Of a DNA stretch of 64,000 nt, positions 3,421-54,318 are shown one piece after another (within the stretch, counting starts at the first letter, position 1; each line of letters opens with the position of its first letter). The DNA is from Ascidia mentula (Eukaryota > Chordata > Ascidiacea > Phlebobranchia > Ascidiidae). The translations under genes and the position numbers were made by a program. Location: the NCBI GenBank assembly GCA_947561715.1, contig OX387201.1:7706001-7770000 (forward strand), given 5' to 3'. The notes under the pieces were generated by a model. The model made no database searches and was not told where the DNA came from. It saw only the letters and a program-made list of their open reading frames with translations.

Positions 3421-6400
3421 ATGTCAATATCTCCAACAATGTCTTCTCGAGCTGGCTCATTGCCAATTACCAAAGTTTCCAGCTCTGAAAATATTTGTGC
3501 CAAGTCAAAAGAAGGTATATATTTATTGTGTAATTTTGTTTTCTGAAAAAAAAAGATTTTGTTTTTTAATAGTTCTTTTTGGCGGACACTAAAGAGTAAT
3601 TCTAAAAGTTTGGTTTGAAATTGTGTGGGGATGGTGCTTGTGGTACACTGAAAAATTTACCTATGTATGTTTAGATCGCAAAAGAGGCAACTTCAGCAAA
3701 CATCCTGGAAATTATCAAGAAATCAGTAATAATGCATGTTACTCCAATGCAAAAGGTGCAAACAATCATTATCAGAAACAACCAAGGGCAAAGTCTTGTG
3801 TCAAAGCTTGTGGTGGACGTAGGAATCAGGTTTAAAAAACACAAATTCATAAGGTTTGCATAGCCTGACTCTATTTTAACAATGAAATTCGTTGCAGGTG
3901 AAAGCTGAAAGACGGGATGCATTTTCTCCGCTTCCCGTTGAGCAACATGGAAGCAAGAAAACCAACATGAATCATCTGCTTAATTTTACATTTGATTCAA
4001 GTTACAATGATCACAAATATGCGCCAAGAGGCAAAGTTATCCATGGGTGGAAACCTGGAAGTCAACAGACAGTGTTTAACAAGGAGCAGTTCATTCAGGC
4101 AAAGTATGAATATAATTAATTGTAAATATCAGCTTGATATTGATAATATCTGGAAAACAAAAATTGACTTTTATATTAATGTGCACCATTTGATCATTCT
4201 CTTTTTTTTGTGTGCATGTTTGGTTTGTTGTTTCATATTCTGTTTACAACTAAGTTTGACCTTTGCACTGTTTTCCAGTTGCCAGCTTGTTGTAAAAGAA
4301 GGTCTTGACTACAGTGCTTACTGTGCTGATGCAGATATTCCTATCGATTGGGATCTAGTTGAAAAAGTGGTAAGTGCAAACATTATTAATTGGCTCATTT
4401 CTGATTGTTATACATCTTGCAAGTAAATGAGTTAATTTTATTTTCAATACAATGCAGAACATGTGGAGCCATGAGACACCCTCTTGCCCAATATGCCTTG
4501 AATCACCCAATGCCGCAAGAGTTACTAAATGTGGACATATTTTTTGCTGGCCGTGCATTCTACATTATCTTGCTCTTGAAACAAAGCCTTGGAGAAAATG
4601 TCCGATTTGTCATGAAGCTGTGCACCAGACTGATCTGAAAAGGTCTGTTTTTGAGGCTTCACTTTGTTAATGTAAAACAACACAAATTTGTTTGAGTAGT
4701 GTGTCAGTCTACGAGGATCAATTTTATGACCCCCAAAGCATAATAACAATGAAACTGATGAAAAGGTATAGAGGATCCATGATTGCATATCCGGCAGATA
4801 AGCATGAAGATAGCCTTAGAAGTATATCTGATCTCCGCAATTTTGTTGGCACCACCAAGGCTCAAATAATGGTAATTTACTTCCCTATTTGATTAAATCG
4901 TTATTTGTTAAAACAATGGGTATGGTAAAAAAGTTGAAATTTGTGCATTGCCATTACCTTTCTAATGCTAGACACCAAACAACTTTCATTGCAGATCCTA
5001 ATGTCCTAATTGTATACGATTGGTAAAAGATGGTTAATCACCAAATTGTGGTTTTCTGCTTATTTGTGTATGTTTTCCCCTTTTTAGGACTTTTGTTTAT
5101 CAATCTAAACCATATTTAGAGCCAAAGAAATTTTAAATTTCTACATGCCACATCTGGACAAGTCATCACCAACATAGTTCAAGTTGAAATGGAGCAACTG
5201 GAGTTCAGGCTTGCAACTGAAAGTGACGTAAGTTGGTGTGTGATTGTCACATGACAAGCATTGTTTGTTTGTGGTTGCACAGGAAGTGACTGTCATATCC
5301 GTTACTGTCCTACCCTAAATTTTTGCTGAGATAGGTGTTTATATTATTTTTCAACCTTCAATTATTGCGTGCTGCAAATATGCATGCACTTATACATGAA
5401 TGCATTGGTCGACATGAATTTGTGATTTGTGTGAATTTAGGATTTGGAGAAACAATTTATAATCGCTGCATTGGACCTCTGCAAACAACGGCAAGCAGAT
5501 TTACTATCTAGCATCGAAAAAAAGCAACAATGTGCTGAACAAACTTCCACAAATACGGGTATGCTGAAGTTTGCTTTCAGTTTCTGTATATGATAGATAA
5601 CTGTTACTATATCCGCCAATATTTTGGCTAACATCCAGCTATGCAGTGACTCATCATAGGTATCATACATGGCTTACAACGTTCTAACTTGCAATAAATA
5701 AAAGCACAGTGCTTTAGTACGCAATCTAACTGACTACAAAAAACTTTACAGAAACTGTGACCGAAAAAGGTTGTGTGGACAAACAACCGGAACCAGAAAA
5801 CAATTCCAGTGTTTGCCTGGAAAGTTCATTGCAGTTGGAAAAGACTCCTGATTCACCCAATGACCATGTTTACTATTTCTATCAGGTAAAAACAGATTAG
5901 TATGTCAACATGTGCCTACTATTTATCATTGTTATGGCTTTGTTGAGATTAGGCGAAAGATGGGCAACACATTTACCTGCATCCGGTAAATGTAAAATGC
6001 CTCATCCACGAGTATGGCAGTTTTGATCAGTGTCCAATGGAGATCACTGGAAAAATTCTTGAAACTGAGGATCTTATAATGAATGAGGTTCGAGTCAACA
6101 TTCATTTTTGCAAAACAACTGCAATATGCTTCAAGTTCATGAAGTTTTAGGTAGAAACAAAAAAAATCTTTTAAAAGACCAACAACTTTCCCACAGGCAA
6201 TGAGGAAACGCCACCGCTATTTGGCGCATTTGCCGATTTCACTCGAGTTTCACGTGACTGAGCTTGACCTGCGTCCACCGGTGCTGCAGAAAGCTACACT
6301 TGATCTCTTTCATGACCACTTGGAGCGACGCGCAACCCAGCGCAAGCGAAAAGCTCGCGAAGAGAAAAAGGTCCTTCGCAAAGTTCACAACGCTGAGATG

Positions 6401-8131: not shown

Positions 8132-9624
<1,493 letters not shown>

Positions 9625-10936: not shown

Positions 10937-12365
<1,429 letters not shown>

Positions 12366-36356: not shown

Positions 36357-38594
36357 ATCTGGTGTGAATCCAATCGCAAGTTTTTTTTGAAAAAACAATC
36401 GCAAGGTTTTTTTGCTGGATTAGCCACAGCTGTCAACTGGGACATTTTGTCGAGGTTCCCGTTATGCGCGCAATATAGTTCCATATACCATATACCCTCT
36501 ACCAAAATTTTGTGGCGTTCTTTTTAGCAAAAGTCCTGCACCATTCTGACAAAGAGGGTTGATTTTTTTGTTTTTTGTGGCACTTTAAAAAATTAAGTGT
36601 TAAAATCCGCCGTGTTATTTCTTTACCAATGGCTTGCCAGATTTGACAAGCTTGCCCTGCATTGTGTCTCTGTGTTGTGCATTAATAAATCTGACAGCCG
36701 AAAAGAAAAACACAAATGCTTGCAAACGACTTTTAGTTTGGTTTGTTTTGTTTCCTGCTGCCACTGCAAAATAAACGACCATCCGTCAACGATTTCCGTT
36801 CATATCAAATCACTTCCTTGCTCGAAAACGAGCAAATTAATTGTTTGTTGCAAACAAACTCGGAAAAACAGGAACATTCCGGAAAAGACAAATTTCAGTT
36901 CTCTTTTACTGTTTTCAGTGGTGACAGAATATTTTATTCGAGTAGCTAACATGTTTTGTTCTTCTTTTGGTTTTATTCCTTTAATAACCAGCAGCAACCG
37001 TGAGTTTTAGGTACAAAAAAAAAGGTTTGAATAAAATAATAATTCCGGTTATTAGAAAGAAGCTACTTAATACGCTACAGCCTGTCAAAGAGGTTCAAAA
37101 TCCACTGGTTTTAACATTTCTATTGTTTAAATTTATTGAGCATTTCTATGGCTGTTGTGATATCTCCAAACCTGGCGAAGGTTCGGAAATCGTATGCAAA
37201 CAATTCATTAAATTCCAATCTGAAAATGTCTTTCAAAATTTTTTATCTAGGCATTCGCCCACCACTTAAACCTTTCCATTAAGTGTGGGTTGAAGCAGGG
37301 CATCCCAACTTTTTTAGCTTGCGAGCCTTTTTAACAAAAATATTCGCCACGCAACGACTGATAAACTTTGTATCTACTAAAACAGTGATTCCCAACCTTC
37401 TTGTGGTTGCGTACCACTTGGAGGTAAAACAAATTCGACGCGTACCACCTAGTTGAGTGTTGCAAAGTGACAAACATTTTGAGATCACTAACGATTTTTT
37501 AAATTCAAACTATATCCGCAAATTACGGAAAGGTGCTCGCGTACCACCTGGAATGGCGTCGCGTATCATTAGTGGTAACAATGCTCCGTGTTTGACAATG
37601 GCAAAATTACAAGTCCCCGCAGTGATCGCTTCAAAGTTGGTCCTTTGTCGATCTTTTATCAGTCTATGTGTATGTCGCTGTAAGGAATATTGTACCGCAA
37701 AGGAAAAGTCGCAAAGGCGCCGTACAACTGCTTGGTTTAAATGCTTGTGGTTTTACATGTCTTTGTTAAACACGGAAATGGTTTAAACCGCATTTCAACA
37801 AACAAAATCGTTTGTCACACGCCCGCCAAACATGTGAAGGCTGAACGACCATGGCATTGAGGAACTGTTTAGGTTCAGTGATCTCAAGAGTCATCGAGTA
37901 CTGTTTGCTTTGCATTACAGCATTCTAACTGAGCCGACTCAAATGTGTTACGAATAGTTTTTAAGCACAGGCCTGCATTGTTTAAATCAGCAAGTATGTT
38001 TAAGTAAAGTGTCAATTCGCTTGCTCCACAACAACTTCCATCTATACAGTCTCAAATACATAAAAGTTCAAGTGTTTACAGTTTTTGAAGGCGCTTTTGA
38101 AGACTATTCAAACGTTACTTATGTTTGTGTAGTCACGCATTTCGTCGCAATGTTCATTATTTTGGTGGATGTTGCTTGCAGGCGCCCCAACATTCAAATG
38201 TGCAGTAAAATTTTGGGGTTACATATTTATTGTTCGTTGTACTGAGATGCTGCAAATGTGTTAAAGCGCCTAGTGTTCAGCCTATAGGTTTGTTAAGGAA
38301 AAAAGGCAACCAAGGGTGCTCTAGCCTTTAGATATTCAGCGGGCGTAAATTTTCTCCAGCGTTTGACCCATTGTTCCTGGCACAGACAGCCTATGGGCGT
38401 TAGCTAAACTATTGCAAAAAGTAACAGCAAGTCCGGAAATGATGCAAGATGTTTCGTTTAGTTCAACTCATAATTGTATGGTCACCTTGCGCTAATATTA
38501 GTTCATCGTATTTTGTTGATTTAGTGGTGAGCTGGTAGTAACGATACGCCAATACATAGTAAGCTGCTGCTGTTGCTTGGCAGAAACGATCGCC

Positions 38595-40671
38595 ATGGGC
38601 ATTGTTGGAACTATCTCAGCGGTCAACTGGGATAGTTGGCTGTGGTTCCGCCTGCTGTATAATGTATGTTTCTTCGTATCAAAGGTTTTGTCGGAAATTC
38701 GAGACGACACATACAACTGGATACGTAACAAGATATCAGGTTTATTGTTTAATACTATATACGTCACGCTTATTCTATAGCAATTCATGGTTCCGAATTA
38801 GCATCAACAATCGGTCTGACGTCAAATGCTGCAGGTAAAGATTGTATTGGTTTAGATCGGAATTCTTCAATAAAACGCATGTAGACCAGCGAAAAATCCT
38901 TTTGCGCAAAATTTTTCGTTCCGGCAAAGCAGAAATTGTCGAAGAATATGAGTACCAGGCACCAAAAATCATTTTTTTTGTCAGTGCGTACAATTAAAAA
39001 ATGATAAAAATTTGTAAATATTATTGATTTTTGCAGGACTTCTAAACTGGCCGAATGAATAAAAACACATTTATTATTTGATTAAGTGTCTTTTCTTTCA
39101 TATGCTAACGCGCACACCAATTCCATGTATCCGTCAAACGCGGTAGTTGTCGTTAATTTCAGACGTTTACTTTGTCTATGCGTAAATTTTCGTTTTGGTG
39201 CTTGGCACATACATTCCCATCCACTCTTTACCTGCAGCATTGTAAGGTCAGGTCCTTTGTTGGCGAGAGGTTAGAAACATGATTTGAGCATGCATGCAAT
39301 ATTTGTTTTGGTTTGGTTTATTTCCTGCTGCCACTTTACTGCATGGTTAACGACCACCCGGTAATGATTTTTATTAAAATGAAATCACTTCCTTCGCGCG
39401 AAAACGAAACGATTAATTGTTGTTGGTAACAGACCCGGAGAAACGGAACAAGTCTGAACGAACAAAGGATATTATGAAAAAAACAAGCGTCGACTTTCAA
39501 CAACAGCGGATTTTAAAGTAAACTCCGTGGTTGTCAATGTTTATGTCTATATGCACATCCTATACATCGCCTTTTTGCAGTTCTGTAACAAGTTTACAAA
39601 TGATGTTTTATCAATACGTGTTTGTCGACATGAAGCGAACGGCCGTTCAAAACATGCAAGCCCCCAACCCAAAGGTGATTCGATATTGCGACAGACAAAC
39701 AAAGAGGCAAGTGCTGGTTCTAATAGGTCATTTAGTTAATGTTTTACCGCGTGCCTTGTCCTTAAATTATATTTGAGCTTGCTATTCGAAACAATGTATA
39801 CGATAGGTGTGTTTGTCCCCAAGACGTGCGAGCCTAGTCCAAATAAAACACGACCAGATAATCATATCATAAAGTTGTGTACGTAAGTTTTACATATGTG
39901 CGATAACCATGCATGAAAAGCAGAATTCTGGACTTGGTGAAGCCAGGACGCCCTTTGGTCGTGATCTTGGGTTCGTGCTCCTGACCCCCGTTTATGTCGA
40001 CCCTGGATCTTTTGTGTCAAATGTCAGTCACATACAAGGATAGGGTCGACTTTGTTGTCATCTACATTGAGGAGGGACATGCTTCAGACTTTTGGTCGTT
40101 TGCGCAAAACAAGTAAGGAAGGAAGAGACTAACTAACTTTATGGATCTTGAAATCTGACAAATAACTGACTATCATCACGCGCACAGCCATGCCAGCATA
40201 AATAATGTTGTTTAGTGCCGACATGAATTTTGTTGGGCCTAAGACTCTTAATTCATATCACATTGTAATCTAGTGTTTCCAGTTTTTGATTTAAATATTC
40301 TATAAAATTTTAGTCAACAATATACAGAACCAACTTTGTAAATGCCAACTCTACAGATATAGGGTAAGCTTCGACACAAAATTACATTTAATGATTTTGT
40401 GTAAAGATACAAAATCACAACTCACAAAACGACGGAAGATCGCTTTATTGCCGCTGAGTTGTTGAAAGAAACCATGGACGGTGAATTGGATCTTTTTGTC
40501 GACCCAATGACGAATGAAGCCAATTTTGCATTCGGAGGAATTCCGGAAAGAATGGCCATAATCGAGAACGACACAGTAGCTTACATCGGAGGAATGGGGC
40601 CTTATGGTTTCGATATTTCCGAGATGAAAACGGCGCTTGATAAAATCTTGGAGCGTGGCAACTCACCATAA
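38595..40671 (+). CDS. DIO: Iodothyronine deiodinase, copy 1 (selenoprotein)
   Basis: Exons 38595-38739, 38781-38834, probable micro-exon 39163-39181, 39581-39706, 39924-40112, 40407-40671, giving 265 residues if TGA 39982-39984 is read as selenocysteine. Deiodinases remove iodine from thyroid hormones by reductive dehalogenation, with Sec as the catalytic residue, at ER or plasma membranes. Seen: an N-terminal membrane helix (WLWFRLLYNVCFFVSKVL), a FYQYVFVDMKR linker, PGRPLVVILGSCSUPPF with Sec at about residue 135, the active-site block VIYIEEGHASDFW, TTEDRFIAAELLKE, and PERMAIIENDTVAYIGGMGP. These match the family in order, and the length is normal. The start ATG is in a strong context (CGCCATGG). 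The intron after 39706 is GC-AG (AG then GCAAGT). The protein keeps going in frame after the TGA for over 110 residues. The micro-exon is inferred from phase. Confidence 0.88.
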
Positions 40672-40786
40672 CCTGTTGATCTATAGCTTGTGTCACATAA
40701 TTCTTGTGTATTATAACCGTTCCATATCATTTGTATTTGTTTTTGCTTTTATCTGGTTGTTACAATTGTTCAAATTGCGTTGCTTT

Positions 40787-40853
40787 ATGTCTCATTGATG
40801 ATGTTAACCTTCAAAACAAGCAAGGGGGTTTATTGATACTATTTCGGAGACAT
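40787..40853 (+). promoter_or_regulatory. SECIS-like element, deiodinase copy 1
   Basis: It lies 116 bases after the stop codon. Helix I is ATGTCTC pairing with GAGACAT (7 of 7). The non-Watson-Crick core is TGAT (5') against TGAT (3'), giving the tandem G.A pairs that SBP2 recognises. A second stem (AACC with GGTT plus CCTT with AAGG) carries the apical AAAA, about 11 bases after the core. This is the layout of a eukaryotic SECIS, which directs Sec insertion. It was found by eye; a fold was not computed. Downstream AATAAA is at 40918-40923. Confidence 0.8.
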
Positions 40854-41681
40854 TGCGCGAGGTGATTTTTACAACTACATTCGTCGATTCATTGCGTCCT
40901 TGTAACTCTGCATACCCAATAAACACAAGATGATTCCCAAGAAAACACGTCTGGTGTGAATCCTGCTGCTGTCGGAAACATTCGCAAGATTTTTTTGCTG
41001 GAATGGCCAAAGCTGTCAACTGGGACAATTCTTCGAGGTTCCCGGTATATTCGCGCCATATAGTTCCATATACCATATACCCTCTACCAAAATTTTGTGT
41101 CGTTCTTTTTAGCAAAAGTCCTGCACGATGCTGACAAAAAGGGTTGATTTTTTTGTATTTTGTGGTAAGGACGGCACTTTAAAAAATTAAGTGTTAAAAT
41201 CCGCCGTGTTATTTCTTTACCAATGGCTTGCCAGATTTGACAAGCTTGCCCTGCATTGTGTCTCTGTGTTGTGCATTGATAAATCTGACTGCCGAAGAGA
41301 AAAACACAAATGCTTGCAAACGACTTTTAGTTTGGTTTGTTTTGTTTCCTGCTGCCACTGCAAAATTAACGACCATCCGTCAACGATTTCCGTTTATATC
41401 AAATCACTTCCTTGCTCGAAAGCGAGCAAATTAATTGTTTGTTGCAAAATAACTCGGAAAAAACAGGAACATTCCGGAAACGGCAAATTTTAATTCTCTT
41501 TTACTGTTTTCAGTTGTGACAGAATATTTTGCTTCAGTAGCTAACATGTTTTGTTCTTCTTTGGTTTTATTCCTTTAATAACCAGCAACCGTCAGTTTTA
41601 GGTAAAAAGAAAAAGGTTTCAACAAAATAATAATTCCGGTTATCGAAAAGAAACTACTTAATACGCTACAGCCTTTCAAAG

Positions 41682-42112
41682 GGTAGACACTTTAACCACC
41701 TCACGGACGGGCGAAACGGGAATTCCCCGGTTCATCGTGATATGGTTAAACTAGTGTTACAGACATGTTTGTTGGAAATATCAATCTTTCCAAACTAAAA
41801 TAGTTATCAAGACATTGTATAGAGGTATTTTTAAAACAAGAAAAACATATTCCATCAACAAAACGTTTGTTTCGGTCACCATGTGCTTCGGCAACGCTAC
41901 ACACGTCCTGAAGTATCAAAATTATTGGTCTTTAGGCAAATCTACCAAAAAACAATATGCTTTTAGAGCTGTGTAAGAACGTTTTTGCACAAATAAACCA
42001 AATATTAGAGTTATAATATTGCAAAATTTCATGAAAACTTAAGTTAAAGTAGCCACGCATGAACCGGGAAAATCCCGTTTCGCCCGTCCGTGAGGTGGTT
42101 AAGTATCTTCCC
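41682..42112. mobile_element. MITE with long inverted ends and 8-bp target duplication
   Basis: The ends pair over about 50 bases, from GGTAGACACTTTAACC / GGTTAAGTATCTTCC through a highly matched CCACCTCACGGACGGGCG arm. Flanking copies of TTTCAAAG are at 41674-41681 and 42113-42120. Unit 1 has the single empty site (TGTCAAAG) at the matching position near 37083-37090, which confirms the boundaries. 8-bp duplications fit hAT-type or similar cut-and-paste elements. There is no coding capacity. Confidence 0.88.
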
Positions 42113-43624
42113 TTTCAAAGAGGTTCGAAATCCACTTTTTTAACATTTCTATTGTTTAAATTTATTGAGCATTTCTAAGGCTGCTGTGATATCTCCGAAC
42201 CTGGCGAGGGTTCGGAAATTGTATGCAAACAATTCATTAAATTCCAATCCGAAAATTTCTTTTTATCCAAGCATTCTCCCACCACTGAAACCTTTTTATC
42301 AAGTGTGGGTTGAAGCAGGGATTCCTAGCATTTTTCGCTTACGAGCCTTTTTTAATAAAAACATTCGCCACGTGACAACTGAAAAACTTCGTATCTACAA
42401 AAACAGTGATTCCCAACCTTTTTGTGGTTGCGTACCACTTCGAGGTAAAACAAATTCGACGCGTACCACCTAGTTGAGTGTTACAAAGTAACCTAGTGTA
42501 CGAAGTAACAAACATTTCTAGATCACTTACAATTTTTTTAAATTCGAACTATATCCGCAAATTACGGAAAGGTGCTCGCGTACCACCTGGAATGCCGTCG
42601 CGTATCATTAGTGGTAACAATGCTCCGTGTTTGACAATGACAAAATTACTATGCCAAAATGATAAGTCCCCGCAGTGATCGCTTCAAAGTTGGTCTTTTT
42701 GTTGATCTTTTATCAGTCTATGTGTATGTCGCTGTAAGGAATATTGTACCGCAAAGGAAAAGTCGCAAAGGCGTCGTACAACTGTTTGGTTTAAATGCTT
42801 GTGGTTTTACATGTCTTTGTCAAACACGGAAATGGTTACGAAATCGTTTGTCACACGCCCGCCATACATGTGAAGGCTGAACAACAATGACATTGGCGAA
42901 CTGCTTAGGTTCAGTGATCTCAAGAGTCAGTAAGTACTGTTTGCTTTGCGTTGCAGCATTCTAACTGAGTCGACTCCAAATTTGTTACGAATATTTAAGC
43001 ACAGGCTTGCATTGATTAAATTAGCAAGTATGTTTAGGTAAAGTGTTAATTCGCTTGCTCCACAACAACTTCCATCTATACAGTCTCAAATAGATAAAAG
43101 TTTAAGTGTTTACAGATTTTGAAGGCGTCCATACTTTTCAAAAGTTACATATGTTCGTGTGGTCACGCATTTCGTGACAATCTTTATCATTTTGGTGGAT
43201 GTTGCTTGCAGGCGCCCCAACATTCAAATGTGCAGTAAAATTTTGGGGTTACATATTTGTTGTTCGTTGTACTGAGATGCTGCAAATGTGTTAAAGCGCC
43301 TAGTGTTCAGTCTAGGTGTGTTAAGGGAAGAAGGCAACCAAGGGTGCTCTAGCCATTAGATATTCATCGGGCGTAAATTTTCTCCAGCGTTTGACCCATT
43401 GTTCCTGGCATAGACAGCCTATGGGCGTTAGCTAAACTATTGCGAAAAGTAAAGGCAAATCCTGAAATGATGCAAGATGTTTCGTTTAGGTCATCTTATA
43501 ATTGGTATGGTCACCTTGCGCTAATATTAGTTCATCGTATTTTGTTGATTTAGTGGTGAGCTGGTAGTGGCGATACGCCAATACATGGTTACGCTGCTGC
43601 TGTTGCTTGGAAGAAACGATCGCC

Positions 43625-45701
43625 ATGGGCATTGTTGGAACTATCTCAGCGGCGGTCAACTGGGATAGTTGGCTGTGGTTCCGCCTGCTGTACAATGTGT
43701 TTTTCTTCATATCAAAGGTTTTGTCGGAAATTCGAGACGACACATACAACTGGATACGCAACAAGATATCAGGTTTATTGTTTAATACTATATACGCTTA
43801 TTCTCCAGCAATTCATGGTTCTGAATTAGCATCAACAATCGGTCTGACGTCAAATGCTGCAGGTAAAGATTGCATTGGTTTAGATCGGAGTTCTTCAATA
43901 AAACGCATGTAGACCAGCGATAAATCCTTTTGCGGAAAATTTTTCGTTCCGGCAAAACAGAAATTGTCGAAGAATATGAGTATCAGGCACCAAAAATCAT
44001 TTTTTTTGTCAGTGCGTACAATTAAAAAATGATAAAAATTTGTAAATATTATTGATTTTTGAGAGACTTCTAAACTGGCCGCATGAATAAGAACACATTT
44101 ATTATTTGATAAAGTGTCTTTTGTTTCATATGCTATTATTTTCCCTACTAACGCGCACACCAAAGCCATGTAACCGTCAAACGCGGTAGTTGTCGTTAAT
44201 TTCAGACGTTTACTTTGTCTATGCGTAAATTTTCGTTTTGGTGCTTTGCACATACATTCCCATCCAATCTTTACCTGCAGCATTGTGAGGTCAGGTCCTT
44301 AGTTGACGAGAGGTCAGAAACATGATTTGAGCATGCAAGCACTATTTGTTTTGGTTTGGTTTATTTCCTGTTGCCACTTTACTGCATGGTTAACGACCAC
44401 CCGGTAATGGTTTTTATTTATATCAAATCACTTCCTTCGCACGAAAACGAAACGATTAATTGTTGTTGGTGACAGACCCGGAGAAACGGAACAAGTCCGA
44501 ACGAACAAAGGATATTATGAAAAAAACAAGCGTCGACTTTCAACAACAGCGGATTTTAAAGTAAACTCCGTGGTTGTCAATGTTTATGCCTATGCACATC
44601 CTGTATATCGCCTTTTTGCAGTTCTGTAGCAAGTCTACAAATGATGTTTTACCAATACGTGTTTGTCGACATGAAGCGAACGGCCGTTCAAAACATGCAA
44701 GCCCCCAACCCAAAGGTGATTCGATATTGCGACAGACAAACAAAGAGGCAAGTGTTGGTTCTAATAGGTCATTTAGTTAATGTTTTACCGCGTGCCTTGT
44801 CCTTAAACTATGTTTGAGCTTGCTATTCGAAACAATGTATACGATACGTGTGTTTGTCCCCAAGACGTGCAGGCCTTGTCCAAATAAAACACGGCCAAAT
44901 GATCATATCATAAAGTTACGAAAGTACGTAAGTTTTACATATGTGCGGTAACCATGCATGAAAAGCAGAATTCTGGACTTGGTGAAGCCAGGACGCCCGT
45001 TGGTCGTGATCTTGGGTTCGTGCTCCTGACCCCCGTTTATGTCGACCCTGGATCTTTTGTGTCAAATGTCAGTCACATATAAGGATAGGGTCGACTTTGT
45101 TGTCATCTACATTGAGGAGGGACATGCTTCAGACTTTTGGTCGTTTGCGCAAAACAAGTAAGGAAGGAAGAGACTAACTAACTTTATGGATCTTGAAATC
45201 TGACAAATAACTGACTATCATCACGCGCACAGCCATGCCAGCATAAATAATGTTGTTTAGTGCCGACATGAATTTTTTGGCCTAAAACTCTTAATTCATA
45301 TCATATTGTAGTCTAGTGTTTCCAGTTTTTGCCTTAGATATTGTCAACGATGTACAGAACCACCTTTCTAAATGCCAACTCTACAGATATAGGGTAAGTT
45401 TCGACACAAATTTACATTTAATGCTTTTGTGTAAAGATACAAAATCACAACTCACAAAACGACTGAAGATCGCTTTATTGCCGCTGAGTTGTTGAAAGAA
45501 ACCATGGACGGTGAATTGGATCTTTTTGTCGACCCAATGACAAATGAAGCCAATTTTGCATTCGGGGGTATACCGGAAAGAATGGCCATAATCGAGAACG
45601 ACACAGTAGCTTACATCGGAGGAATGGGGCCTTATGGTTTCGATATTTCCGAGATGAAAACGGCGCTTGATAAAATCTTGGAGCGTGGCAACTCACCATA
45701 A
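43625..45701 (+). CDS. DIO: Iodothyronine deiodinase, copy 2 (selenoprotein)
   Basis: Exons 43625-43772, 43809-43862, probable micro-exon 44206-44224, 44622-44747, 44969-45157, 45437-45701, giving 266 residues with TGA 45027-45029 as selenocysteine. Exon 1 has one extra Ala codon compared with copy 1 (SAAVNW). The Sec exon has the same length (189 bases) and the GSCSUPPF core is unchanged. The last exon encodes the same 70-residue C-terminal stretch from MLKETMDG. The same GC-AG intron follows 44747. A poly(A) signal AATAAA is at 45955-45960. No frame break is seen, so this copy looks functional. Confidence 0.87.
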
Positions 45702-45818
45702 TCTGCTGATCTATAGCTTGTGTCACATAAATCTTGTGTATTGTAACCGTTCCGTAATATTTGTGTATATTTTTGTTTTTATTTTGGTGCCTTAAAATTG
45801 TTCGAATTGCGTTGTTTT

Positions 45819-45885
45819 ATGTCTCATTGATGACGTTAACCTTCAAAACAAGCAAGGGGGTTTACTGATACTATTTCTGAGACAT
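45819..45885 (+). promoter_or_regulatory. SECIS-like element, deiodinase copy 2
   Basis: Same design as copy 1: ATGTCTC/GAGACAT helix I, 5' core TGAC and 3' core TGAT, with the AAAA apical run. One core-adjacent change (GATGATG to GATGACG) is shared with copy 3. The G.A tandem is kept. Confidence 0.78.
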
Positions 45886-46709
45886 GGCGCAAGGTGATTT
45901 TTACAACTACATTCGTCGATTCATTGCGTCCTTGTAACTCATAACTGCATTCCCAATAAACACAAGATGATTCCCAAGAAAACACGTCTGGTGTGAATCC
46001 TGCTGCTGTCGGTAACAATCGCAAGGTTTTTTTGCTGGAATGGCAACAGCTGTCAACAGGGACAATTTGTTGAGGTTCCCGGTGACGCGCCATATAGTTC
46101 CAAATACCATATACCCTCTACCAAAATTTTGTGACGTTCTTTTTAGCAAAAGTCCTGCACGATGCTGACAAAGAGGGTTGATTTTTTTGTATTTTGTGGC
46201 AAGGACGGCACTTTAAAAAATTAAGTGTTAAAATCCGCCGTGTTATTTCTTTACCAATGGCTTGCCAGATTTGACAAGCTTGCCCTGCATTGTGTCTCTG
46301 TGTTGTGCATTAATAAATCTGACTGCCGAACACAAATGCTTGCAAACGATTTTAGTTTGGTTTGTTTTGTTTTCTGCTGCTACTGCAAAATTAACGACCA
46401 TCCGTCAACGATTTCCGTTTATATCAAATAACTTCCTTGCTCGAAAACGAGCAAATTAATTGTTTGTTGCAAACAAACTCGGAAAAACAGGAACATTCCG
46501 AAAACGACAAATTTTAATTCTCTTTTACTGTTTTCAGTGGTGACAGAATATTTTATTCGAGTAGCTAACATGTTTTGTTCTTGTTTTGGTTTTATTCCTT
46601 TAACAACCAGCAGCAACCGTGAGTTTTAGGTACAAAGAAAAAGGTTTCAATAAAATAATAATTCCGGTTATCGGAAAGAAACTACTTAATACGCTACAGC
46701 CTTTCAAAG

Positions 46710-47018
46710 GGTAGACACTTTAACCACCTCACGGAGGGGCGAAACGGGAATTCCCCGGTTCATCTTGATATGGTTAAACTAGTATTTCGGACATGTTTGT
46801 TGGAAATATCATTCTTTCCCAATGAAAATAGTTGTCAAGGCATTGTATAGAGGTATTTTAAAAACAAGCAAAACATGTTCCATCAACAAAACGTTTGTTT
46901 CGTTCACCATGTGCTTCGGCAACGCTACACACGTCCTGAAGTATCAAAATTCTTGGTCTTTAGGCAAATCTACCAAAAAACAATATGCTCTTAGTGTGTA
47001 AGAACGTTTTTGCACAAA
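46710..47018. mobile_element. Truncated copy of the MITE in unit 3
   Basis: Left end and body of the element at 41682-42112, preceded by the same TTTCAAAG (46702-46709). The right ~119 bases and following sequence were removed by the unit 3 deletion. It was inherited by duplication and not inserted independently, since the position and target site are identical. Confidence 0.85.
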
Positions 47019-47984
47019 ATGATAAGTCCCCGCAGTGATCGCTTCAAAGTTGGTCTTTTTGTTGATCTTTTATCAGTCTATGTGTATGTCGCTGTAAGGA
47101 ATATTGTACCGCAAAGGAAAAGTCGCAAAGGCGTCGTACAACTGTTTGGTTTAAATGCTTGTGGTTTTACATGTCTTTGTCAAACACTGAAATGGTTACG
47201 AAATCGTTTGTCACACGCCCGCCATACATGTGAAGGCTGAACAACCATGACATTGGCGAACTGCTTAGGTTCAGTGATCTCAAGAGTCAGTAAGTACTGT
47301 TTGCTTTGCGTTGCAGCATTCTAACTGAGTCGACTCCAAATTTGTTACGAATATTTAAGCACAGGCTTGCATTGATTAAATTATCAAGTATGTTTAGGTA
47401 AAGTGTTAATTCGCTTGCTCCACAACAACTTCCATCTATATAGTCTCAAACAGATAAAAGTTTAAGTGTTTACAGATTTTGAAGGCGTCCATACTTTTCA
47501 AAAGTTACATATGTTCGTGTGGTCACGCATTTCGTGACAATCTTTATCATTTTGGTGGATGTTGCTTGCAGGCGCCCCAACATTCAAATGTGCAGTAAAA
47601 TTTTGGGGTTACATATTTGTTGTTCGTTGTACTGAGATGCTGCAAATGTGTTAAAGCGCCTAGTGTTCAGTCTAGGTGTGTTAAGGGAAGAAGGCAACCA
47701 AGGGTGCTCTAGCCATTAGATATTCAGCGGGCGTAAATTTTCTCCAGCGTTTGACCCATTGTTCCTGGCATAGACAGCCTATGGGCGTTAGCTAAACTAT
47801 TGCGAAAAGTAAAGGCAAATCCTGAAATGATGCAAGATGTTTCGTTTAGGTCATCTTATAATTGGTATGGTCACCTTGCGCTAATATTAGTTCATCGTAT
47901 TTTGTTGATTTAGTGGTGAGCTGGTAGTGGCGATACGCCAATACATGGTTACGCTGCTGCTGTTGCTTGGAAGAAACGATCGCC

Positions 47985-50058
47985 ATGGGCATTGTTGGGA
48001 CTATCTCAGCGGTCAACTGGGATAGTTGGCTGTGGTTCCGCCTGCTGTATAATGTATTTTTCTTCGTATCAAAGGTTTTGTCGGAAATTCGAGACGACAC
48101 ATACAACTGGATACGTAACAAGATATCAGGTTTATTGTTTAATACTATACGCCACGCTTATTCTATAGCAATTCATGGTTCTGAATTAGCATCAACAATC
48201 GGTCTGACGTCAAATGCTGCAGGTAAATATTGCATTGGTTTAGATCGGAGTTGTTTGGTAAAACGCATGTAGACCAGCGATAAATCCTTTTGCGGGAAAT
48301 TTTGCGTTCAGGCCAAGCAGAAATTGTCGAAGAATACAGGAACCAGGCACCAAATATCAAATTTTTTTTGTCAGTGCGTACAATTAAAAAATGACACAAA
48401 TTCGTAAAAATTATTGATTTTTGCAGGACTTCTAAACTGACCGAATGAATAAGAACACATTTATTATTTGATAAAGTGTCTTTTGTTTCATATGCTATTA
48501 TTTTCCCAACTGACGCGCACACCAAAACCATGTAACCGTCAGACGCGCAAATTGTCGTTAATTTCAGACGTTTACTTTGTCTATGCGTAAATTTTCGTTT
48601 TGGTGCTTTGCACATACATTCCCATCCAATCTTTACCTGCAGCATTGTGAGGTCAGGTCCTTAGTTGACGAGAGGTCAGAAACATGATTTGAGCATGCAA
48701 GCACTATTTGTTTTGGTTTGGTTTATTTCCTGTTGCCACTTTACTGCATGGTTAACGACCACCCGGTAATGGTTTTTATTTATATCAAATCACTTCCTTC
48801 GCACGAAAACGAAACGATTAATTGTTGTTGGTGACAGACCCGGAGAAACGGAACAAGTCCGAACGAACAAAGGATATTATGAAAAAAACAAGCGTCGACT
48901 TTCAACAACAGCGGATTTTAAAGTAAACTCCGTGGTTGTCAGTGTTTATGCCTATGTACATCCTGTATATCGCCTTTGTGCAGTTCTGTAGCAAGTCTAC
49001 AAATGATGTTTTATCAATACGTGTTTGTCGACATGAAGCGAACGGCCGTTCAAAACATGCAATCCCCCAACCCAAAGGTGATTCGATATTGCGACAGACA
49101 AACAAAGAGGCAAGTGTTGGTTCTAATAGGTCATTTAGTTAATGTTTTACCGCGTGCCTTGTCCTTAAATTATGTTTGAGCTTGCTATTCGAAACAATGT
49201 ATACGATACGTGTGTTTGTCCCCAATACGTGCAGGCCTAGTCCAAATAAAACACGGCCAAATGATCATATCATAAAGTTATGAAAGTACGTAAGTTTTAC
49301 ATATGTGCGGTAACCATGCATGAAAAGCAGAATTCTGGACTTGGTGAAGCCAGGACGCCCGTTGGTCGTGATCTTGGGTTCGTGCTCCTGACCACCGTTT
49401 ATGTCGACCCTGGATCTTTTGTGTCAAATGTCAGTCACATACAAGGATAGGGTCGACTTTGTTGTCATCTACATTGAGGAGGGACATGCTTCAGACTTTT
49501 GGTCGTTTGCGCAAAACAAGTAAGGAAGGAAGAGACTAACTAACTTTATGGATCTTGAAATCTGACAAATAACTGACTATCATCACGCGCACAGCCATGC
49601 CAGCATAAATAATGTTGTTTAGTGCCGACATGAATTTTTTGGCCTAAAACTCTTAATTCATATCATATTGTAGTCTAGTGTTTCCAGTTTTTGCCTTAGA
49701 TATTGTCAACAATGTACAGAACCACCTTTCTAAATGCCAACAGATATAGAGTAAGTTTCGACACAAAATTACATTTAATGCTTTTGTGTAAAGATACAAA
49801 ATCACAACTCACAAAACGACTGAAGATCGTTTTATTGCCGCTGAGTTGTTGAAAGAAACCATGGACGGTGAATTGGATCTTTTTGTCGACCCAATGACAA
49901 ATGAAGCCAATTTTGCATTCGGAGGAATTCCGGAAAGAATGGCCATAATCCAGAACGACACACTAGCTTACATCGGAGGAATGGGGCCTTATGGTTTCGA
50001 TATTTCCGAGATGAAAACGGCGCTTGATAAAATCTTGGAGCGTGGCAACTCACCATAA
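47985..50058 (+). CDS. DIO: Iodothyronine deiodinase, copy 3 (selenoprotein, possibly degenerating)
   Basis: Exons 47985-48129, 48169-48222, probable micro-exon 48568-48586, 48984-49109, 49331-49519, 49794-50058, giving 265 residues with TGA 49389-49391 as selenocysteine. The GSCSUPPF core and phases are intact. In the last exon it reads IIQNDTLAYIGG where copies 1 and 2 have IIENDTVAYIGG. The SECIS 3' core is changed (CAGAT in place of TTGAT or CTGAT). The shared AATAAA is altered to AAGAAA, so expression or Sec insertion may be reduced. The coding frame itself is unbroken. Confidence 0.85.
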
Positions 50059-50174
50059 CCTGCTTATCTATAGCTTGTGTCACAAAATTCTTGTGTATTA
50101 TAACCGTTCCGTATCATTTGTATTTGTTTTTGCTTTTATCTGGTGGCTTACAATTGTTCAAATTGTGTTGCTTT

Positions 50175-50241
50175 ATGTCTCATTGATGACGTTAACCTTC
50201 AAAACAAGCAAGGGGGTTTACAGATACTATTTCCGAGACAT
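50175..50241 (+). promoter_or_regulatory. SECIS-like element, deiodinase copy 3 (altered core)
   Basis: Helix I and the apical AAAA are as in copies 1 and 2. The base before the 3' GA is A, not T, which removes the U.U pair next to the G.A tandem. Whether it still works is not known from sequence. Confidence 0.65.
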
Positions 50242-50300
50242 TGCGCGAGGTGATTTTTACAACTACATTCGTCGATTCATTGCGTCCTTATAACTCTGCA

Positions 50301-51444
50301 TACCCAAGAAATACAAGAAGAAAAAAAACAATCTTGTTAATATGTTTTCAATGCACAATATGCGGACAGAGTATTGTTTCACTAAATGCACAGCAAACGT
50401 GTTGATAGACTATAATTTCGCATCGTTAGTCAGAAAGCAACTTGCTGCACGTTTTATCTTCGGTTATCTTACAGCCTGGAATTAATATGTCAATCAATTT
50501 CGTCCGGATTGGAAAGGCATTTGTTTTAAAGGGTTAAGTGTAACATTTCAGATATTTCGGTAAAATTACGAACACAGCGTGGACATTTTTGCAACTTTAA
50601 GATCCATTAAAGCACTGCAGCATGTGTGTCCGACCTTTACGCACAAATAACTGAAAAAGTACAAAAAAAAACATAAAAATTGTATTGACTGTTATGTTAT
50701 GTCATTCGTGCAGTTATAATGTCGATTGGTCAGCACAGCGAGTAACAAGTTCCAATATAAAGCATGTCGGGGTTCTTCTTTTTTTCTCATGTCGTTTTAT
50801 TGGACTTGGACATGCGTTGAACGCGTGATTCAATGACTTTGGTTGAACTCTCGGTCCAACATAGTTATATGTTTTGAGCCTTTTTTGTATATACATGTGT
50901 TGTGCGGCGACAAGCACAAAGCCGTTTTTCGGCTAAACTTAAACGTTGTTTAGTGTACTATTGCAGCGGGTAAAAATCTGGATTTGGCTTACGAGATGTT
51001 AAAAAAGCAACTTTTATTGGAATTGGCAAAGAAACGGATTGAATCCGGAGGTTTTGTTACAAATACATTGCAAGTCATTTGTACCTTCAATTTTATTCGA
51101 ATTATTTTTAAGGCGATGGTCCGGATTAACTAGTTTTTTTTCTTATTCAAAAGCTTTTGTATTATTAAAACATCAATATGAATTTTCAAATAACATTTAA
51201 ATGCAAAAAATTATTTTTTAATGTGCTTTTATTTAAAATTGGGAAAGTGTTATCTCAGCACATAGAAATTATTTAATTAGCAAATGGTTTCTAATTTCTA
51301 TGGGCTCACGTGTGTATGGCGTCCAAAAATAGTCGTTTTTGGAAAGTATGTTGTTTGTAAATACGCCCTACAACACTGATTAGTAGATTTTGTCGTTTAT
51401 CAAGGCATATCCTTCTTGTTCGTTGGACCTCCAATATTGCTAAC
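50301..51444. other. Intergenic before NLE1
   Basis: Holds the partner copy (about 50760-50915) of the dispersed repeat at 2310-2490 and AT-rich sequence. The NLE1 promoter should lie near its right end; no TATA box is obvious. Confidence 0.4.
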
Positions 51445-54318
51445 ATGGAATGTGAAATGGAAATCACCAGCAGTGCATTGGTGCAAATGTGCAACGAAGA
51501 TGGTGACGTCACTGGCCCACCATTTGACGTTCCATTATCTGTAACTTCAAAACAGTTACAGTTACTATGTAACTCTATGCTTGACAATGTAGGTTTCTCA
51601 TTTAGACACAAACTTTGCTGTGGTGTTTTTGTAACTTGTAGTGTATTTTCAGGGGGAGGAAACTCCATATGCTTTCTATGTGAATGAAAAAGAGATTCTG
51701 AATGACCTGGAAAGCATTGTTAAACAAGAAAACATTTCTACAGAGTCTGCAATAAAAATTGTTTACCAACCTCAAGCAGTTTTTAAGGTATGTATACAAT
51801 AATGTGTTCACTAGAAACAATAAAAATAACTCTCCAAACCAGTGATTATCAACAGCCGGTCTGTAGAGCATTGTCAGAAAGCAGTCCACAAAATTACTCT
51901 ATGTATTGGCAGACCTACTTTTGAGGCTATGTAATTGGAAAACTTATTTTTGAAAAATATTGTCCTTATTACATTACAATCTTGGAAATACAATGGGCCA
52001 CATACTAAACAATCACAATATCAATACAAAAATATGTTATTGCTAATATTGTATTTTAGGTCCGAGCAGTTACCAGATGCACCTCATCAATAGAGGGTCA
52101 TGCGGAGGCTGTTTTGTCTGTTGCTTTTAACCCAAATGGAAGGTAGAGAAAAATATTTCTGTTGTTTGGACATGGCATTATGTACCAATGACATGAAAAC
52201 TAGTGTTTCATGTAAATTGTGTACTTTGATATTCTTTACCTATTTAAAAATATATATAAAAAGGCACTTATAGGTTTAAGTCAGTAATTGAAACAATGTA
52301 AGTGCAGTCTATATATATATATATATATATACATACGTTTTAGGTATTTAGCAAGTGGTTCTGGGGACACAACTGTACGTTTTTGGGATCTTAACACAGA
52401 AACACCGCATTTTACGTGCAAGGCACACAGACACTGGGTTTTATTTATTGCCTGGTCCCCAGATGGAAAAAAACTGGCGTCCGCCTGCAAAAATGGGCAA
52501 GTAAGTCAACATAGCTCAAATAATTAAGTCCCCAGTAATGCAAATGTTTCTAGTATTAACATACAAGTTATTATAATATCAGACTGTGGACTTTATGATA
52601 AAACAAAATTTGTTACGATTTTTCCTTGTTATATGTAGATATGTATTTGGGATCCACAAACTGGAAAGCAGTTGGGCAAGTCTATGACAGGGCATAAACA
52701 ATGGGTAACTTATCTTTGTTGGCAGCCGTTGCATTTGGATGGAATGTGTAGGAAATTGGCTAGTTCATCAAAAGTATGTACTGCTACAAATAGTGAAAAT
52801 GGTAAGCCTGTTTCAAAGACTTTTGTGTCATTATTTGCAGGATGGCACTATCAGAATATGGGATGCCATAACTAGCCAAAGCCTGTTGATTTTGTCTGGG
52901 CACTTGCAGAGCATTACATGCATCCGGTGGTCTGGCGAAGATTTAATTTACAGTTCATCCCAGGACAGAACCATCAAAGTTTGGAGGCCTAATGATGTAG
53001 GATTTGGTTTTAAAACAGCATCAAACTCATGTTTTTGTAATGCAAATAATTGTTTAGGGTGTTCTTTGCCGTACTTTGCAAGGCCATGGCCATTGGGTTA
53101 ACGTTTTGGCGCTTAGCACTGACTATGTGATGAGAACGGGAGCATTTGATCCTGTGTCAGCGACGATTATTTCAACTGACTGCAAAGATTCTACCAAAGT
53201 GATACAGGAGAAGGCAAAACTGAGATACAAGGCTGTAAAGGTCAATAACACTTTTTGAAGTGATTCCTTAGTTTCTGTATCTTTGTTTCAAATGCATACA
53301 AAATTGGCGAGGTAAAAATTACATGAATGAAACACTAGTTAGCTTTTGCAATGTTGAGCTTTACAGATCTTCAAGTAACGTTAAGGGCTGACGAAAAACA
53401 TGAAGAATATAAAAATGTTTACTGTCGCATTGCAGTTTCATGTTTACTGAAAAGTCCAGTAAGCATTGGCTGCAATCTAAAGTGTATGTTGGTTATGTAA
53501 AAATACAATTTTTTCGTTGCTAATTTCAGGGTGGCGGAAGTGAGAGGATGGTGTCCGGCTCTGACGATTTTACTTTGTTCCTGTGGAATCCCTCCGAAGA
53601 AAAAAAACCATTGGCTCGCATGACAGGACACCAGGTTTGTGGGATCAATCCCCCTTTTTCTCTTTACTATTGGGAATTTAAAACAGCGGTTTATTGCTGC
53701 AGGCTTTGGTAAACGATGTGCGGTTTTCTCCTGACGGTCGCGTTATTGCGTCCGCCTCATTCGATAAATCGATCAAGCTGTGGGAGGGAAAGTCTGGAAA
53801 GTAGGATTTAATTTGAAGTGAATTTCACTTTCTTGTTCTGTTATGTAACGTTATGGATTTTCCAGGTTCCTCGCTTCATTGAGGGGACATGTTGGTTCGG
53901 TCTATCAAGTTGCATGGTCGGCTGACAGCAGGCTGCTGGTTAGTGGAAGCGGGGATAGCACATTAAAGGTCAGTTGACCCACTACGGTTACGATACATAG
54001 ATTTTTAATTTGTCGAACAATACCCCCTGAAGCACGTCAAAGTGTCGTGTAGTCAAATCTTGATTGTAGGTCTGGTAGTCCTGAGATGATAAGGTATAAA
54101 ACTCCGTGATTGACTTTAGGTTTGGGATGCGCACAAACAAAAACTTTTGTTGGATTTGCCTGGTCACGCCGACGAGGTGTACGCGGTGGATTGGAGCACT
54201 GACGGGCAAAGGGTCGCAAGTGGTGGGAAGGACAGAGTGTTGAAAATGTAACTTTGACTGTTTTTACTTTTGGTGACGTCGCAACTAACCATTCTACTGC
54301 TATAGATGGAGAAAGTAA
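51445..54318 (+). CDS. NLE1: Notchless homolog 1, WD40 ribosome assembly factor
   Basis: Twelve coding exons: 51445-51588, 51653-51787, 52060-52142, 52344-52500, 52639-52773, 52841-52996, 53058-53240, 53530-53634, 53703-53800, 53866-53968, 54120-54247, 54306-54318. Total 1440 bases, 479 residues, all phases kept. The N-terminal NLE domain (PPFDVPLSVTSKQL and IVYQPQAVFKVRAVTRC) binds the AAA ATPase Midasin (MDN1/Rea1) in pre-60S particles. It is followed by a WD40 propeller with clear repeats: GHAEAVLSVAF, SGSGDTTVRFWD, SSSKDGTIRIWD, SSSQDRTIKVW, SGSDDFTLFLW, SASFDKSIKLW, SGSGDSTLKVWD, SGGKDRVLKIW. NLE1 drives 60S subunit maturation and was first described as a Notch modulator. Exon 7 uses a weak donor (GTCAAT). 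AATAAA is at 54470-54475. Confidence 0.95.
52310..52332. repeat. (TA)n microsatellite in NLE1 intron 3
   Basis: A run of alternating T and A just upstream of the exon 4 acceptor. Likely length-polymorphic. Confidence 0.8.

Follow-up and report, generated by a model that had tools for sequence, protein, structure and literature searches.

Within a 64-kb window of the genome of a probable tunicate (contig C69, positions 7706001-7770000 of a 195.8-Mb assembly of 79 contigs), we identified three iodothyronine deiodinase genes arranged head to tail on the plus strand between window positions 38595 and 50058. We hold with high confidence that they form a real tandem array of intact-looking selenoprotein genes, which arose by local duplication and are kept under purifying selection. 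The three genes, here called copies 1, 2 and 3, start with ATG codons at 38595, 43625 and 47985, and the stop codon of copy 3 ends at 50058. Self-alignment of the window resolved three repeat units on the plus strand, at 37081-41993, 42111-47018 and 47015-50321, the third being without the downstream tail present in the first two. The units are 91.9% identical between copies 1 and 2 (over 4983 nt), 92.6% between copies 1 and 3 (3358 nt), and 96.7% between copies 2 and 3 (3321 nt). Copy 1 most probably split off first, with copies 2 and 3 separating later. An earlier note on this DNA had claimed a local triplication with the same outer limits and in-frame TGA codons at 39982, 45027 and 49389; all of these coordinates hold, and the alignments bear out the triplication.

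The family assignment made in the earlier note was examined by searching the predicted proteins against profile and structure databases. The full-length models matched the deiodinase family PF00837 with expectation values (E) of 1.7e-49, 1.1e-49, and 8.6e-50 for copies 1 to 3 (168.8-169.7 bits against a cut-off of 27), and the joined exons 2 to 4 of copy 2 alone gave an E of 1.3e-48. For this joined sequence, Pfam listed just two further families at E 1 or better, Thioredoxin_8 (0.098) and W02B3_4_N (0.16), neither of which reached its cut-off, and the only Protein Data Bank (PDB) matches up to E 0.1 were the type III enzyme Dio3 (2.3e-37) and the type II enzyme Dio2 (1.4e-26). The protein search that the note had proposed as a check therefore returns a deiodinase, and no other family, as the best match. 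Because of these PF00837 and Dio3/Dio2 matches, the array genes are not chance reading frames.

The gene models comprise six proposed exons each; relative to the earlier note they add a complete N-terminal exon set, as well as the SECIS-like elements described below. Copy 1 (38595-40671, 287 residues) has exons at 38595-38739, 38781-38834, 39433-39517, 39581-39706, 39924-40112, and 40407-40671; copy 2 (43625-45701, 288 residues) at 43625-43772, 43809-43862, 44476-44560, 44622-44747, 44969-45157, and 45437-45701; and copy 3 (47985-50058, 287 residues) at 47985-48129, 48169-48222, 48838-48922, 48984-49109, 49331-49519, and 49794-50058. The last three exons (exons 2 to 4) were placed by homology, and the first three (exons 1a to 1c) were inferred from phase, conservation, and splice signals. 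In all three copies the frame is open throughout, with one selenocysteine (Sec) codon and one final stop. Intron 2 (39707-39923, 44748-44968, and 49110-49330) is of the GC-AG type, and its donor AG|GCAAGT is conserved in every copy. Exons 1a and 1b would be separated by a candidate ultra-short intron with GT/AG ends, of 41 nt in copy 1 (38740-38780), 36 nt in copy 2 (43773-43808), and 39 nt in copy 3 (48130-48168); this stretch is less alike in the three copies than the 54-nt exon 1b that follows, and it must be intronic if copy 1 is intact. Joining exon 1 straight to exon 2 was tried and rejected, as no well-scoring combination of homologous donor and acceptor sites left every copy in frame; this failure of phase is what made copy 1 look broken. 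We looked for an internal exon that had been missed; 11 candidates are open in every copy, and of these we chose the 85-nt exon 1c (39433-39517 and its counterparts), second in splice score behind a 4-nt candidate. It has the right phases, varies between copies by a single synonymous change, and moves the start of the Pfam match from profile position 57 back to position 41 (16 positions), with a gain of 3.5 bits for copy 2.

The in-frame TGA codons lie at 39982-39984 (residue 157 of copy 1), 45027-45029 (residue 158 of copy 2), and 49389-49391 (residue 157 of copy 3), each in a GSCS-U-PPF setting. The claim that they encode Sec had rested on over 110 residues beyond the TGA; we count 130 in-frame residues over two exons, conserved in all three copies. 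Over the whole coding sequence, synonymous and nonsynonymous differences number 14 and 3 between copies 1 and 2, 9 and 5 between copies 1 and 3, and 11 and 4 between copies 2 and 3, with nonsynonymous and synonymous rates (Ka/Ks) of 0.0044/0.080, 0.0074/0.050, and 0.0059/0.062 for the three pairs. Past the Sec codon, the corresponding counts are 6 and 0, 4 and 2, and 6 and 2. This synonymous excess indicates that translation beyond the TGA is under selection, and the substitution pattern points to purifying selection both before and after the codon.

A selenocysteine insertion sequence (SECIS)-like element follows each gene on the plus strand, at 40789-40851, 45821-45883, and 50177-50239. These elements matched the Rfam model SECIS_1 with 29.1, 31.6, and 29.7 bits (E 0.032, 0.0068, and 0.022 in a 16-kb search). 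The hairpins begin 117-119 nt past each stop codon, in the expected 3' untranslated region (3'UTR), and all three carry the core (RTGA, apical AA, and NGA) together with an upper and a lower helix. The elements of copies 1 and 2 fold with z-scores of -2.21 and -2.31, and 6 and 5 of 200 shuffles, respectively, fold as well. A custom scan for the SECIS core on both strands of the 64 kb gave nine candidates (six and three per strand). A lower helix of 5 or more pairs is present in three of them, precisely the elements of the array. As a stricter filter had missed the window elements and was then relaxed, the scan serves as support and not as an independent test. No Rfam family reached its gathering threshold in the window. 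A whole-genome search with RF00031 gave no match, and none of the control genomes gave one either, so the absence is itself unsupported. As for the decoding machinery, the genome holds a tRNA-Sec of 79.3 bits with anticodon TCA, and SepSecS is represented by seven exon pieces covering profile positions 23-388. The tRNA-Sec model returned 44 rows, of which five pass the cut-off (four by 0.2 bits), and it matched all 14 control genomes, five of them above the cut-off; only the top row was used because the other passing rows are marginal and every control matches. Separately, a dense cluster of matches to this model (36.9-42.5 bits) lies at G000:C67 14573566-14614697 and is probably another tRNA type.

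The array is not the only source of deiodinase sequence in the genome. Searching the assembly with PF00837 gave 14 exon matches, six in the window genes, four on contig C2, two on C52, and two on C73. Six genes have both the Sec exon and the C-terminal exon: the three of the array, two on C2, and one on C52. The two C2 genes (C2a and C2b) lie ~194 kb apart, and their aligned catalytic parts are 92% identical. The array is 35-40% identical to the C2 and C52 genes in the catalytic part, and since the matches to the latter break right after the Sec motif and continue unbroken over the intron sites of the array, the gene structures of the two groups differ. A seven-sequence tree placed C52 and C2 together (support 88), Dio2 and Dio3 together (support 83), and the array on a third separate branch; being unrooted, it does not bear on whether the array falls within a tunicate clade. 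We considered whether the array sits on an unusually long branch and rejected this, as its length of 0.95 falls within the range of the other sequences measured from the same node (~0.81-1.12).

The Sec TGA is kept in both C2 genes, in C52, and in one of the two C73 fragments. With hits accepted up to E 10, Rfam returned no SECIS from any of the five paralogue loci. Strong SECIS-like hairpins of canonical appearance are found downstream of C2a and C2b on the minus strand (locus L020, 3274-3311, and locus L021, 3247-3285), with folding z-scores of -3.51 and -3.02. Downstream of C52, a still looser filter gave three candidates, one of which is SECIS-shaped but not the best by energy. The C73 fragments (L023, C73:9725501-9735500, and L024, C73:9740501-9750500) lie on the minus strand ~15.7 kb apart. 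L023 has a Cys at the Sec site (GSCTCPPF) and L024 retains the TGA. Neither fragment has its upstream piece in frame with its active-site piece, and no C-terminal exon was found with a copy 2 query. Weak hammerhead ribozyme-like matches flank the L024 fragment at 4018-4068 (minus strand, 29.7 bits) and 8337-8418 (plus strand, 26.3 bits), both under the gathering scores.

Several observations weigh against three functional deiodinase selenoprotein genes. At 29.1-31.6 bits, all three SECIS matches fall short of the Rfam gathering score of 35, and the copy 3 element does not fold clearly better than shuffled sequence, with a z-score of -1.22 equalled by 20 of 200 shuffles. Exons 1a to 1c and the 36-41-nt intron are inferred, a Pfam search found no domain in exon 1a, and the N-terminal hydrophobic stretch of this exon is mild (19-residue Kyte-Doolittle mean of 1.16-1.19). 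Finally, an alignment to mouse Dio3 (PDB 4tr3), whose numbering is used for the active site, shows the replacements Thr169Ser, Gly206Phe, Tyr257Ile, Phe258Pro, and Arg275Met in the array.

These replacements, together with an Ala201Gly change, are the basis of an alternative in which the deiodinase fold and chemistry are kept but the substrate or regioselectivity is altered, so that classical thyroid hormones would no longer be the main target. Simulations of Dio3 have Tyr257 and Arg275 holding the carboxylate of thyroxine (PMC7506546), and both are changed in the array. The start of the omega loop, described as conserved family-wide in the form AHxxDGW (PMC7506546), reads GHASDFW, with the His, Asp, and Trp the same and the Ala and Gly changed, and the active-site motif is SCSU, with Ser at the Thr169 position of S-C/A-T-Sec. 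The array catalytic domain is 40-41% identical to that of mouse Dio3 and shares with it the Ser-Cys-x-Sec-Pro-Pro motif (the solved chain has Cys for Sec); Ser167, Cys168, Sec170, Tyr197, Glu200, His202, Trp207, His219, and Arg225 are all conserved. On the other hand, the Arg275 site is itself variable among mammalian isoforms, being Lys in Dio2 and Ala, Ser, or Pro in Dio1, and Dio1 also has Pro at 258 (PMC11592359). Thr169Ser reduces the activity of mouse Dio3 by only 60% (PMC7506546), and the branch leading to the array is of ordinary length. We consider a changed target possible but rather unlikely. A more tentative extension, which we think unlikely, would make the array a distinct deiodinase subfamily, in which the altered cleft gives a new iodinated substrate or regioselectivity and the gene was amplified to supply large amounts of that activity, for instance for metamorphosis or in the endostyle; it draws on Ile257, Met275, the Dio1-like Pro258, the GHASDFW loop start, and the SCSU motif. 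For the array as a set of ordinary deiodinase genes, the residues in place suggest an active enzyme whose substrate preference the sequence does not fix.

One or more copies, copy 1 above all, could instead be decaying pseudogenes kept alike by gene conversion. Without the mini-intron, the first exon of copy 1 runs into a stop absent from copies 2 and 3, and one candidate acceptor that is open in those copies reads GTAA in copy 1. Identity along the units is also mosaic: copies 2 and 3 are 99.8% identical over 500 nt of 5' flank and 85.1% identical over ~115 nt of 3'UTR, so some gene conversion may contribute. However, with exon 1c and the mini-intron in place all three copies are open end to end, and the exons of copies 1 and 2 show the 14 synonymous against 3 nonsynonymous differences given above, while introns 2 and 3 of copy 1 differ by 5-6% from those of the other copies. 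Pseudogene decay is accordingly improbable.

That the triplication is partly an assembly artefact, with two haplotypes placed end to end, appears very unlikely. Copies 2 and 3 differ by just 3.3%, which is within the heterozygosity of some ascidians. Copy 1, however, is ~8% different from both, identity along the units is mosaic, and a 536-nt probe from copy 2 found three matches in the whole assembly, all within the array. The distribution of the unit tail, present in units 1 and 2 but not in unit 3, also argues against an artefact, as does a further copy of this tail upstream of unit 1, at 36393-37090 on the plus strand. This extra copy is 91.7% identical to 40976-41681 and 92.6% identical to 46014-46709, gave no deiodinase match in a tblastn search of the window, and is possibly a trace of unequal exchange. 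That the TGA is simply a stop, the genes giving truncated or alternative proteins, is extremely unlikely: the SECIS scores below the curated threshold and the Cys at the Sec site of one C73 fragment would fit it, but the 130 residues past the TGA are under selection and the same TGA stands in all three copies, both C2 genes, and C52.

Taking the array as three deiodinase selenoprotein genes, the UGA of each transcript would be decoded as Sec through the SECIS element, a SECIS-binding protein, and tRNA-Sec. The product would be an enzyme with the thioredoxin fold, for which the mildly hydrophobic N-terminal stretch is a plausible membrane anchor, and it would remove iodine reductively from an iodothyronine-like substrate through the selenolate. 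Because the proteins differ pairwise by only 3 to 5 nonsynonymous changes, plus one inserted Ala in copy 2, the three copies would most likely serve dosage or divided expression.

The host had been taken for a tunicate, and two pieces of a GH6 domain in the genome (E 9.2e-6 and 1.1e-4) fit this, GH6 being a tunicate trait among animals. The window also contains a tandem actin array adjoining the deiodinase array, with seven copies of one actin exon between 9065 and 31356 that share an identical 108-residue translation; six are on the plus strand (starting at 11160, 14820, 18457, 22771, 27164, and 31033) and one is on the minus strand (9388-9065). Downstream of the deiodinase array, a WD40-repeat reading frame occupies 52709-53101 on the plus strand.

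Tandem deiodinase arrays are already known from other invertebrates, and the present one adds a probable tunicate case. Clusters have been described in Branchiostoma (three genes shown), Trichoplax (six), and Lottia, and four of the six invertebrates tabulated have 4 to 12 deiodinases (PMC3473315). As in our array, the genes there are tandemly duplicated, with at least three in some clusters; in contrast, some of those genes are on opposite strands whereas ours are all head to tail, and strong SECIS elements were reported in only three of the six Trichoplax genes whereas each array gene has a SECIS-like element. The earlier note had suggested that the array reflects a lineage-specific expansion of iodine metabolism. 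The triplication stands, but the iodine-metabolism part does not follow, as tandem clusters recur in unrelated invertebrates (PMC3473315), and the changed substrate-cleft residues leave the substrate open. Among the matches listed in our literature search, which left most subscription literature outside, no title reported a tandem deiodinase cluster in a tunicate.

Dio2 and Dio3 are described as present only in vertebrates (PMC3316567). One deiodinase was found among the selenoproteins of Ciona (PMC2874816); this Ciona intestinalis DI 3, compared here by description, is an ascidian deiodinase tabulated with a reported downstream SECIS, but it is a single gene in that table against three in the array. 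Another ascidian deiodinase, that of Halocynthia roretzi, is named in PMC8699336. In this 2021 survey, each non-vertebrate chordate has one deiodinase that apparently lacks the transmembrane, hinge, and linker domains; tunicates are given as having no catalytic G domain, though its motif is present in H. roretzi; the database step of that survey had first given eight Oikopleura and two Ciona entries, and its authors called for better tunicate gene annotation (PMC8699336).

The array does not fit this picture of single-copy, N-terminally short tunicate deiodinases: one probable tunicate has six deiodinase genes, and for the three tandem ones N-terminal exons are proposed as well. On this evidence, the published tunicate gaps may be failures of annotation at the TGA and at unusual introns, and the three natural copies offer material for testing SECIS strength and dosage.

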